From Shimia aestuarii (GTDB taxonomy: Bacteria; Pseudomonadota; Alphaproteobacteria; Rhodobacterales; Rhodobacteraceae): DNA of 64,000 nucleotides. Below, in pieces: positions 16,131-18,542 of this stretch; position 1 is the stretch's first letter, and every line of letters starts with the position of its first letter. A model generated the notes under the pieces. That model made no database searches and was not told the origin of the DNA. It saw only the letters and a list, made by a program, of their open reading frames with translations. The stretch is from positions 248,001 to 312,000 of the forward strand of contig NZ_FOTQ01000002.1 of the NCBI RefSeq assembly GCF_900114635.1, given 5' to 3'. The translations under genes and the position numbers were made by a program.

Positions 16131-18542
16131 ATGAAACCGGATTTCGCTCTATCGCTTTCATTTGAAGGGATCGGCCTGCTCACACGGCGTGCCGGGGGCT
16201 GGCATTTGCTGGGCGAAGTAACGCTGGATACCGAAGATCTCGCGGGAGATCTTGAGAAGCTACGCGCCAAGGGCGAGGCGGTTGCCAAGGGGCCGTTCGT
16301 CACGGCGGTGATACTGCCCAACGATCAGATCAAATACCTGTCCCTGGATACCGGGCGGGCCCGCGACGCCAAGCGACGAGATGCTGCACTTGTGGCGCTG
16401 GAAGAATCGACGCCCTACCGAGCAGACCAACTTGCCTTCGACATTCACGCAGTTGGCCGGAACACCCAAGTCGCCGCTGTTGCGCGGGAAACGTTGGAAG
16501 AGGCCGAAGCTTTCGCCACGGAACACGCATTCAACCCGGTCTGTTTTACCGCGATGCCGCCGGAAGACAATTTTGATGCGGCGCCAGATTTCGGCCCGAC
16601 CAAGGCTGCGCCGGCTCTCCTGAAGAGCGCACAGCTCAAGCCGGAGCCTAATCCGATCCGCATCGTCTCCAGTGGAGACCTGCCTGACCCGGAACCCGCA
16701 CCGCTTTCAAGCCCGCCCGTCAAGACGGAAGCCAGTGCTCGTGAAGTCGCTGAACCCGAAGCAAGCGCTTCGTTCGACAGTGCAACCACGCCAGCATCGA
16801 ACGATATATCCGACGCCCCCCCTGCAAAAGCCGAGGAACAGTCGAAAGACTCAGCCCCCCCGGTCGCCTTTGCGTCGATCCGCGCACATCGAGAGACACA
16901 AGAGACGGCCTCGAAAACCACATTGGGGGGCGCGAGCCGCACCGCACAGGGCACCAACGCACCCGGCATACCCGGAGACTCCGGTCCCACCGCGAGCCGC
17001 AGCCTGCGGTTTGATCCGGCCAAGGTCATTGCCGGGCTGAAGGCAGACTCCGCTCAAACCGAGCCTCACGGCAAAGAAGAGACCGCAGAAGATGACGGCG
17101 GGTTTGTTAGCCGCCGTCAAAGGACCAAGATTGCGCCCAAGCCCAGGAAAAGGCCCGCTCCGCCTGTACATCACAGTGAGACGCAGGGCACTCAAAACAC
17201 CGACAGCGAACAACAGCGACTGACTGTCTTTGGGGCACGCACCGGCCAGTCCGTGGGGGGCAAGCCCAAGTACCTCGGCCTGATCATGACCGCCGTGCTT
17301 TTGCTGTTCCTCGCCGCAGTCGCGCTTTGGGCCGCCCTGTTTCTGGAAGACGGGGTCGCCGGGTTGTTTGGCCGCGGCGACCGAAACCAGATCGTGCTAC
17401 TTGATCCCGAAGCATCGGTGATCGCGGATGAAGACACTGCCCCGGTTCAGGGTACTGGGCCCTTGCAAACGCCCGCTGAAGAAAGCGTGGCGGGGACTGA
17501 CACCAGTCCGCTGGTTTCTGATGCCCTCGCCACGGACATCCTGACGCCGGCCGCCCCGGACAGCATCACTGACAGCGCCGAAATTGAAGCGATGGAGGAC
17601 AGCGTTCACCCGACGGCGCTGAGCGAAAACGAGGCTGAGGCCCGCTATGCCGTCACTGGCATCTGGGAACGTGCGCCGCAACCACCGGAGACCCCCACGG
17701 CTGGAAGCACGGATGACCTTTATGCCACCTCCATTGATCGGGTCCTGATCGCACAGGACGCCGTGGCTCTTCCCGACCCGAAAGGGTTTCTTGTGGACCA
17801 GCCGCTGAATGCACAGTTGAACCCGGTTGGGCCAGGCACCCGGTTTGATCTGGACGAGCGGGGCCTCGTAGTAGCCAGCGCGCAAGGAACGCTGAACCCG
17901 GATGGCGTCATGGTCTATCTGGGCCGCCCGCCTGTTCTGCCTGCGAGCCTGCCCAACCGCGCCGAAGCTGACGGGCGCGCCCTGTCACGTGAAGATGAGC
18001 AACGCCTCGCCTCGATCCGCCCGCGTTTCCGCCCCGGCGATCTCGTGGAGAGCAACGAGCGGGCAACACTTGGTGGGCGATCGCGTGCAGAGCTTGGGCG
18101 CATTCGCCCCAAACCGCGCCCGAGCACCGAGAAAGACGCTGCGGAAAACGACAACACCCCGACCGCGCTGGCGGTAGCCTCGTCGCTGCGTCCGCGTCAG
18201 CGGCCAAGCAACATCGCCCAACTGGCGCAGCGCAGCAAACCGACCGAAGCGGTTGTCGCCACGCCTGCAGCTGCCACCATCACCCCCAAGATTCCGACCA
18301 CCGCGTCAGTTGCCCGTCAGGCCACGATCCAAAACGCGATCAACCTGAACAAGATCAACCTGATCGGCGTCTATGGAACAAGCAACAACCGCCGCGCGCT
18401 GGTGCGACTGGCGAATGGCCGTTATCGCAAGGTTCAGGTGGGAGACCGGATCGACGGCGGCAAAGTCGCCGCAATCGGTGAACAGGAACTGCGCTACGTC
18501 AAATCCGGTCGCAATATCGTTCTGAAAATGCCCAAGGGCTAG
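16131..18542 (+). CDS. Single-pass membrane protein with GspL/PilM-like and GspC/PilP-like ends
   Basis: This 803-residue protein has no firm family name that I recognise. The N-terminal ~150 residues resemble the cytoplasmic actin-like domain of GspL/PilM (LPNDQIKYLSL, EESTPYRADQLAFDI, AVARETLEEAEAFA). A long Pro/Ala/acidic low-complexity linker follows, then one membrane helix at about 380-405. After a second disordered stretch rich in R-P-R-P repeats comes a C-terminal domain (about 741-803) like the PilP/GspC homology region (GVYGTSNNRRALVRL, VQVGDRIDGGKVAAI). No other secretion or pilus gene is adjacent. A role in an envelope machine is inference. Confidence 0.7.
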   Translation: MKPDFALSLSFEGIGLLTRRAGGWHLLGEVTLDTEDLAGDLEKLRAKGEAVAKGPFVTAVILPNDQIKYLSLDTGRARDAKRRDAALVALEESTPYRADQLAFDIHAVGRNTQVAAVARETLEEAEAFATEHAFNPVCFTAMPPEDNFDAAPDFGPTKAAPALLKSAQLKPEPNPIRIVSSGDLPDPEPAPLSSPPVKTEASAREVAEPEASASFDSATTPASNDISDAPPAKAEEQSKDSAPPVAFASIRAHRETQETASKTTLGGASRTAQGTNAPGIPGDSGPTASRSLRFDPAKVIAGLKADSAQTEPHGKEETAEDDGGFVSRRQRTKIAPKPRKRPAPPVHHSETQGTQNTDSEQQRLTVFGARTGQSVGGKPKYLGLIMTAVLLLFLAAVALWAALFLEDGVAGLFGRGDRNQIVLLDPEASVIADEDTAPVQGTGPLQTPAEESVAGTDTSPLVSDALATDILTPAAPDSITDSAEIEAMEDSVHPTALSENEAEARYAVTGIWERAPQPPETPTAGSTDDLYATSIDRVLIAQDAVALPDPKGFLVDQPLNAQLNPVGPGTRFDLDERGLVVASAQGTLNPDGVMVYLGRPPVLPASLPNRAEADGRALSREDEQRLASIRPRFRPGDLVESNERATLGGRSRAELGRIRPKPRPSTEKDAAENDNTPTALAVASSLRPRQRPSNIAQLAQRSKPTEAVVATPAAATITPKIPTTASVARQATIQNAINLNKINLIGVYGTSNNRRALVRLANGRYRKVQVGDRIDGGKVAAIGEQELRYVKSGRNIVLKMPKG

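Follow-up and report, generated by a model that had tools for sequence, protein, structure and literature searches.

The window analysed here is a 64-kb stretch of the Shimia aestuarii genome (64,000 nucleotides on contig C17 of a 4.2-Mb assembly, G000 in our sample). Within it, at 16131-18542 on the forward strand, lies an open reading frame (ORF) with an ATG start that encodes a protein of 803 amino acids. We found that this protein joins in one chain a lobe of the GspL/PilM type, a single membrane helix and a GspC/PilP-type HR domain, that nearly all the Rhodobacteraceae sampled have it, and that it is retained in genomes with no match to a secretin or to a GspE/TadA-type ATPase. It probably does a job other than secretion. 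On balance, and with a confidence a little above even, we favour the view that it is an inner-membrane scaffold made of platform parts of the type II secretion system (T2SS) and type IV pilus (T4P), uncoupled from secretion, which would tether a cytoplasmic partner to a periplasmic one. The gene, taken from the ORF list and its translation, and its parts are:

16131..18542, + strand: whole gene; a single-pass membrane protein with a GspL/PilM-like lobe, a transmembrane helix and a GspC/PilP-like HR domain, a layout found in 57 of 58 orthologues.
16131..16607, + strand: cytoplasmic lobe at the N-terminus (residues 1-159); corresponds to the first half of the actin-like fold of GspL/PilM, by AlphaFold2, Foldseek and VIA.
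16608..17282, + strand: cytoplasmic linker (residues 160-384); little conserved in the profile, Pro/Ala-rich by eye.
17283..17345, + strand: single transmembrane helix (residues 385-405); by hydropathy and flanking charge, with the positive side N-terminal.
17346..17630, + strand: periplasmic linker (residues 406-500); little conserved in the conservation profile.
17631..17945, + strand: conserved middle block (residues 501-605); by conservation and model, with no family match.
17991..18221, + strand: RPxxRP-rich conserved stretch (residues 621-697); by conservation, with short predicted helices.
18270..18539, + strand: C-terminal HR domain (residues 714-803, fold about 740-803); GspC/PilP type and the most conserved part.

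A first-pass annotation of the window, made from the DNA letters alone, had described the N-terminal end as GspL/PilM-like and actin-like, and structural comparison bears this out for one lobe of the fold. The AlphaFold2 model of residues 1-160 has a predicted local distance difference test score (pLDDT) of 95.5 and a predicted template modelling score (pTM) of 0.88. At E<=0.001 Foldseek matched it to 22 PDB chains, of which the top 15 are GspL or PilM (1.1e-8 to 1.1e-5). These include 5tkw (GspL of the pullulanase system, 1.1e-8), 1yf5 (6.1e-8), 4pht (GspL), the PilM chains 5eou_B (6.5e-7) and 2ych_A (1.1e-5), and 3jc8_Ma, a chain of a type IVa pilus machine model which we take to be PilM; after them come FtsA and an actin-like protein whose function is unknown. 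With VIA-align, for which a family missing from the aligner's list was counted as no evidence, the best matches were GspL 4pht_Y (Z 10.9, 3.8 Å over 147 residues), PilM 5eou_B (10.8) and GspL 1yf5 (10.7), with weaker scores for FtsA (Z 7.7-8.4) and Hsp70 (about 6-7). The conserved domain spans about 155-160 residues and so corresponds to the first lobe only of the actin-like fold: on the PilM chains 5eoy_B and 5eox_A the alignment covers 10-176 of about 352 residues (for other chains a broader range is printed, because only its ends are given). With the second lobe missing, there is nothing to close a nucleotide cleft. Sequence profiles reach this end through the orthologues, TIGR01709 (GspL) matching 7 of 41 N-domains (best 4.8e-4), TIGR01175 (PilM) 3 of 41 (best 1.7e-3) and PF11104 (PilM_2) 3 of 41 (best 0.066); the window's own N-terminal end has no match to any of these three models.

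The C-terminal end, first annotated as PilP/GspC-like, holds up in both profile and structural searches. TIGR03021 (PilP) matches this part in all 41 orthologues (best 1.3e-7), PF04351 (PilP) in 40 of 41 (best 4.7e-5), GspC_delta in 20 and the type III secretion protein SctD in 9. A lack of profile hits at either end, which the first-pass annotation had named as grounds for rejecting its view, was therefore not what the searches gave. Searched alone, the window protein scores weakly, with PilP at 0.032 and TIGR03021 at 1.7e-5 (29.1 bits, under the cut-off of 34.65); it has no sequence match in PDB, and a profile search over its whole length found no catalytic or DNA-binding family. The model of residues 496-803 has an overall pLDDT of 77.4 and a pTM of 0.28, but the pLDDT is 93-97 at residues 746-795. 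VIA-align placed GspC-HR 3oss_C first (Z 10.2, 1.5 Å over 60 residues), followed by PilP structures (3jc8_Pa, 9.3; 2lc4, 8.8; 2y4y, 8.8; 2ivw, 8.2), the Dot/Icm type IV secretion chain 7muc_Af (7.6) and GspB 4wfw (6.7). Foldseek E-values for this model are modest (best 1.2e-3), probably because much of it is disordered. Profile searches of PDB gave GspC at 0.14 with the HR alignment (A3) and, with the N-domain alignment (A1), SH3BGRL3 and CENP-S (best 0.048), which we take to be chance matches. Both searches are weak, so that structure was needed for the fold assignment.

A free-standing HR-domain gene also occurs in the family. It encodes 81-112 amino acids without a membrane helix by hydropathy. 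In each of the 10 loci viewed (L032:9427-9702, that is G000:C17 at about 116427-116702, and L222-L230) its position is between purF and an SDR gene, though not always directly next to purF. Two HR matches are present in 40 of 148 genomes, and the ten second matches inspected are these purF/SDR-region loci. A cytoplasmic location for such a free-standing HR domain would be unusual.

Between the two ends, hydropathy supports the single membrane helix of the earlier description at 385-405. The N-terminal flank of the helix is the more positive one in 56 of 57 orthologues, and by this charge rule the lobe is cytoplasmic and the HR domain periplasmic, as expected for one polypeptide spanning both compartments. 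On reading the translation we see no N-terminal signal or lipobox; the N-terminal end is the GspL-like lobe itself, and the HR domain is at the C-terminal end. The earlier description of two long low-complexity linkers survives for the cytoplasmic linker and holds only in part for the second. In the alignment of 41 orthologues the conserved parts are 1-159, the membrane segment, 501-605, 621-697 and 714-803, with little conservation elsewhere, so that the stretch between helix and HR domain is not all linker. Within the middle block the model reaches a pLDDT of about 87-94 at 566-605 (short strands) and is lower before that, except for a helix at 496-515. Profile tests on residues 496-803 of the 41 members gave no consistent Pfam or NCBIfam match for the middle block, and neither these residues nor the whole protein matched PilN or GspL_C. 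The stretch at 621-697, which by eye contains about three RPxxRP motifs, likewise has no family match. Across 57 orthologues the cytoplasmic linker is 2-482 residues long (median 252) and the helix-to-HR distance 235-626 residues (median 322); in five divergent copies (L211, L212, L213, L215 and L217) the helix starts within about 25 residues of the lobe. A frameshift or assembly chimera as the source of the layout was rejected because the layout recurs across orthologues, and the long ORFs that overlap the gene on the opposite strand are, in our judgement, spurious antisense frames of GC-rich DNA.

The protein is lineage-specific, as the first-pass annotation had supposed. Matches were found in 145 of the 149 family genomes sampled, and an HR profile added a divergent copy in G023 to give 146. 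The relatives that carry names include Shimia, Sulfitobacter, Roseovarius, Leisingera and Phaeobacter, which is why we take the family to be the Rhodobacteraceae. Of the three genomes without a match, two are only 74% and 76% complete. When the N-domain profile was run against 288 genomes of the class, six gave a match, four of them in the family and the other two (G334 and G434) outside it, in both cases within T2SS-like clusters. Most of the 145 genomes are known as matches alone; the layout was examined in 58 orthologues, and 57 of these have the lobe, the hydrophobic segment and the HR domain. The 57 comprise the window's copy, 40 loci picked from the family matches, 15 chosen as secretin-less or divergent and that of a congener, with an N-domain threshold of 1e-2; the weakest N-domain match is in L215 (found at 1e-2, absent at 1e-3) and the weakest segment in L212 (mean hydropathy 1.38). 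The 58th, from the 2.6-Mb genome G059 (L219:9615-10888), was the sixteenth locus chosen as secretin-less or divergent; it is not counted among the 57, its gene being divided into adjacent N-domain and HR ORFs, with the helix not found. It is the sole split case seen and represents either fission or decay. Identity to the window's copy across 41 sequences is 38-60% in the N-domain (median 48%) and 44-87% in the HR domain (median 67%), with invariant columns, while the cytoplasmic linker varies freely.

A survey for co-occurring secretin, GspE or PilB genes had been proposed at the outset; it found a secretin match in 133 of 148 family genomes, and co-occurrence is not obligatory. Twelve of the 15 secretin-less genomes match the protein (G021, G045, G056, G067, G071, G078, G090, G094, G102, G117, G125 and G136), and eight of these (G045, G056, G078, G090, G094, G117, G125 and G136) also lack a match to a T2SSE-type ATPase. 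In the other four, T2SSE gives a weak match under the cut-off (G067), one match each (G071 and G102) or two (G021). Seven of the eight genomes with neither component are at least 97% complete and the eighth, G078, is 83% complete. The full layout of lobe, helix and HR domain is present in all 10 of the 12 whose loci were fetched, that is, all except G021 and G102. Single-model Pfam tests, which a diverged N0-like domain could escape, gave no match to N0 (PF21305) or STN (PF07660) in the window's genome or in nine secretin-less genomes; in the congener G168, used as a control, N0 was found once and STN was not found. By this measure the protein does not act as a secretion component would, and the earlier suggestion that it may be part of an envelope 'machine' is not supported.

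With GspL the protein shares a first actin-like lobe followed by one transmembrane helix; in the GspL/PilM-type proteins L242 and L243, from T2SS-like clusters of other alphaproteobacterial families, the N-lobe that precedes the helix is likewise short. It differs from GspL in having the middle block, the RP stretch and the HR domain in place of a PilN/GspL_C-type periplasmic match, in lying outside any T2SS cluster, in its usually long cytoplasmic linker, and in that its profile misses canonical TIGR01709 GspL proteins. Like GspC, its best structural match in the HR domain, it has one transmembrane helix and a periplasmic HR domain; unlike GspC, it carries the HR domain at the extreme C-terminus and has a large cytoplasmic domain, and an N0-bearing protein was not found in its genome. 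The likeness to PilM extends to the first lobe, PilM's second lobe being missing here, and that to PilP to the HR fold, the PilP lipoprotein signal being absent; in T4P, moreover, PilM and PilP are two proteins. Among described tethers, GspB/OutB is likewise an inner-membrane protein with one transmembrane helix and a periplasmic HR domain, and in GspAB a cytoplasmic domain, transmembrane helix and HR domain are fused in one chain (both from the accessible part of PMC9239104). The same portion of PMC9239104 describes GspA as an AAA+ ATPase, as opposed to the GspL-like lobe here, and GspB and GspAB as acting on the T2SS secretin, whereas the present protein is kept in 12 genomes without a secretin match. 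A PilO-PilP fusion of Pseudomonas putida, described as a T4P protein in the available text of PMC3169554, is likewise a platform-protein fusion with an HR domain, but it carries PilO instead of a PilM/GspL lobe. A partial literature search, with subscription journals mostly outside its reach, found no paper on this protein or on a fusion of a GspL/PilM lobe with an HR domain. As far as searched, what is new is the combination of known modules and the apparent independence of the parent machine.

The simplest origin would be a fusion of near neighbours such as those seen in the two genomes outside the family. The N-profile matches one protein in each (E-values per genome of 8.2e-8 in G334 and 1.8e-5 in G434; hhalign 95.6% and 94.0%), and in a search over the ORFs of 15 loci the HR profile matches GspC-like genes close downstream in the same clusters (1.5e-4 and 1.1e-4; hhalign of A3 against the G334 gene, 55.7%). 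The order in the G334 cluster (L242) is a GspL-type gene, a T2SSM_b gene and the GspC-like gene, with a GspK-like ORF before them by eye; the GspC-like gene has no Pfam match and was named from the HR profile and by eye. An hhalign value of 93.4% between A1 and alignment A4 was set aside as not independent, since A4 contains L242, and alignments A4 and A5 are poor. The congener G168 offers a further view. One of its loci (L238, G168:C4) holds a cluster that we read as GspF, E, D, C, M, L, K, J, I, H and G with a prepilin peptidase, for which Pfam backs E (N1E), D (N0), C and M and gives L a weak GspL_C match; its GspL is above the TIGR01709 cut-off. This genome also has an orthologue of our protein, on another contig and in its usual neighbourhood, and the presence of separate gspL and gspC genes in addition to it means that the protein is not the GspL or GspC of that T2SS. 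With a cluster in the congener and none seen in the window's genome, the T2SS appears patchy even within the genus.

Putting these data together, we consider a fusion or shuffling of T2SS parts, followed by independence from the T2SS within the Rhodobacteraceae, the most likely origin. The N-lobe would probably dock a cytoplasmic partner, as GspL does with GspE in the T2SS according to the title of PDB entry 4pht. The flexible linker, the single helix and the second flexible stretch would then reach into the periplasm, and there the HR domain would grip a periplasmic, outer-membrane or wall component, much as the HR domains of GspC, PilP and GspB bind the secretin N0 domain and GspB also anchors to peptidoglycan (accessible part of PMC9239104). 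The ligand would not be a recognisable secretin N0 domain. Because neither a GspE-type nor an N0-type partner is detectable in several genomes, a tether with other partners is the most economical reading. We put forward more tentatively, as somewhat short of an even chance, the stronger proposal of a trans-envelope tether core to the Rhodobacteraceae that works independently of secretins, pili and T2SS ATPases and whose HR ligand is something other than N0, such as peptidoglycan, a SIMPL-type periplasmic protein or an outer-membrane protein.

Several findings weigh against this scaffold model or the T2SS ancestry that goes with it. The protein has no match in G030, a 2.4-Mb genome scored 100% complete, and is thus not indispensable. 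Neighbourhood analysis found no operon partner conserved across loci, and no partner was identified. The 133 genomes with a secretin match allow for a role with Tad in those genomes, and a diverged N0-like domain might have gone unseen. The support for a T2SS origin is indirect. GspL and PilM are tied as the closest known structures to the modelled N-lobe; of six TIGR01709 GspL proteins none was matched by the N-profile at E<=1, and of 8 GspL-type proteins overall it matched 2 (L242/L170 and L243/L171); and the HR profile does not match the congener's GspC (hhalign 6.0%). The L242 protein, the best hit of the N-profile, itself scores 1.4e-12 with PilN (over the cut-off), just under the cut-off with PilM_2 and 0.027 with T2SSL, and reads as GspL/PilN-type with a short N-lobe.

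The genes around the locus bear on one alternative, namely that the protein is a trans-membrane sensor whose periplasmic half senses the state of the envelope, perhaps with a SIMPL protein, and whose lobe relays this to a cytoplasmic partner. In the window the neighbours are a Cys/Met-metabolism pyridoxal-phosphate enzyme, an acyltransferase, HPPD, an Lrp regulator and a Na/H-exchanger/TrkA_N protein. No secretion gene adjoins the gene there, as first noted. Across 56 loci a Cys/Met-metabolism gene is a neighbour in 47 (within 2 kb in 45), KefC-like in 34, Lrp in 30, and HPPD and cobT in 25 each, and here too secretion genes are absent from the recurring neighbours. The usual order is the Cys/Met-metabolism gene, a divergent SIMPL gene and this gene, then HPPD, Lrp, KefC-like and cobT. 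A 334-residue family without a Pfam match, glycosyltransferase-like by eye, lies upstream in 34 of the 56 loci (for example L033:13790-14794). The SIMPL (DUF541) gene, whose product by eye appears to have a signal peptide, stands head-to-head upstream in 42 of 55 loci, or 35 by a stricter distance rule (for example L034:7668-8363 and L239:8142-8825). This arrangement is what recommends the sensor interpretation, which we nevertheless regard as unlikely: the window's genome keeps the protein with no SIMPL match, for which reason SIMPL was set aside as a general partner, and the absence of any catalytic or DNA-binding family match over the protein also tells against a sensor.

A second alternative makes the protein the missing alignment factor of the Tad pilus, its HR domain binding the N-domain of the Tad secretin and its lobe the Tad ATPase, so that it would do the work of GspL and GspC combined. 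According to the available part of PMC10499894, Tad lacks a homologue of either GspC or PilP and may need an equivalent mechanism. In the window's genome there are one secretin match and two T2SSE matches, all of which we judge from neighbours and from PF13629 to be of the Tad type. Both ATPases adjoin genes recognised by eye as CpaE/TadB-type, and the families listed for the two (20 of 20 and 25 of 27) do not include N1E. One of the two (L074, at about 258000 on G000:C9) is a second Tad-type ATPase, the genome's sole secretin adjoining the other. However, that secretin carries PF13629 and BON and not N0; a VirB9-like N-domain is reported to replace N0 in Pseudomonas RcpA (available part of PMC10499894). 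Searches by tblastn with ten Tad and T2SS proteins (Tad ATPases, TadB, Tad secretin and GspD, E, F, L and M), which recovered the genes expected in two control loci, returned nothing at 1e-4 in the 57 loci around the gene or the 64-kb window. The 12 secretin-less genomes, eight of them also without a T2SSE match, keep the protein all the same. Those eight speak against Tad as its sole role, not against an added role where Tad is present, and we consider a dedicated Tad alignment protein improbable.

The homology of both ends to platform proteins would suit a standard T2SS or T4P part, the rest of the machine being encoded elsewhere in the genome, but we give this very little credence, since it is contradicted for the window's genome by the Tad type of its one secretin and two ATPases, and in the congener the protein is extra to separate GspL and GspC genes. 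We are equally sceptical of a functionless relic, to which the lack of a partner, the split, helix-less gene in G059 and the absence from G030 might point, given matches in 146 of 149 genomes and a lobe and HR domain conserved with invariant columns while the cytoplasmic linker varies.

The HR domain and the GspL/PilM lobe thus persist together in sampled genomes without a detectable N0 domain or GspE/TadA ATPase. If the scaffold model is correct, modules of a secretion platform have found a second use as an independent link from cytoplasm to periplasm. The Rhodobacteraceae would then offer, in genomes that lack the original machine, a clean background for finding the new partners.

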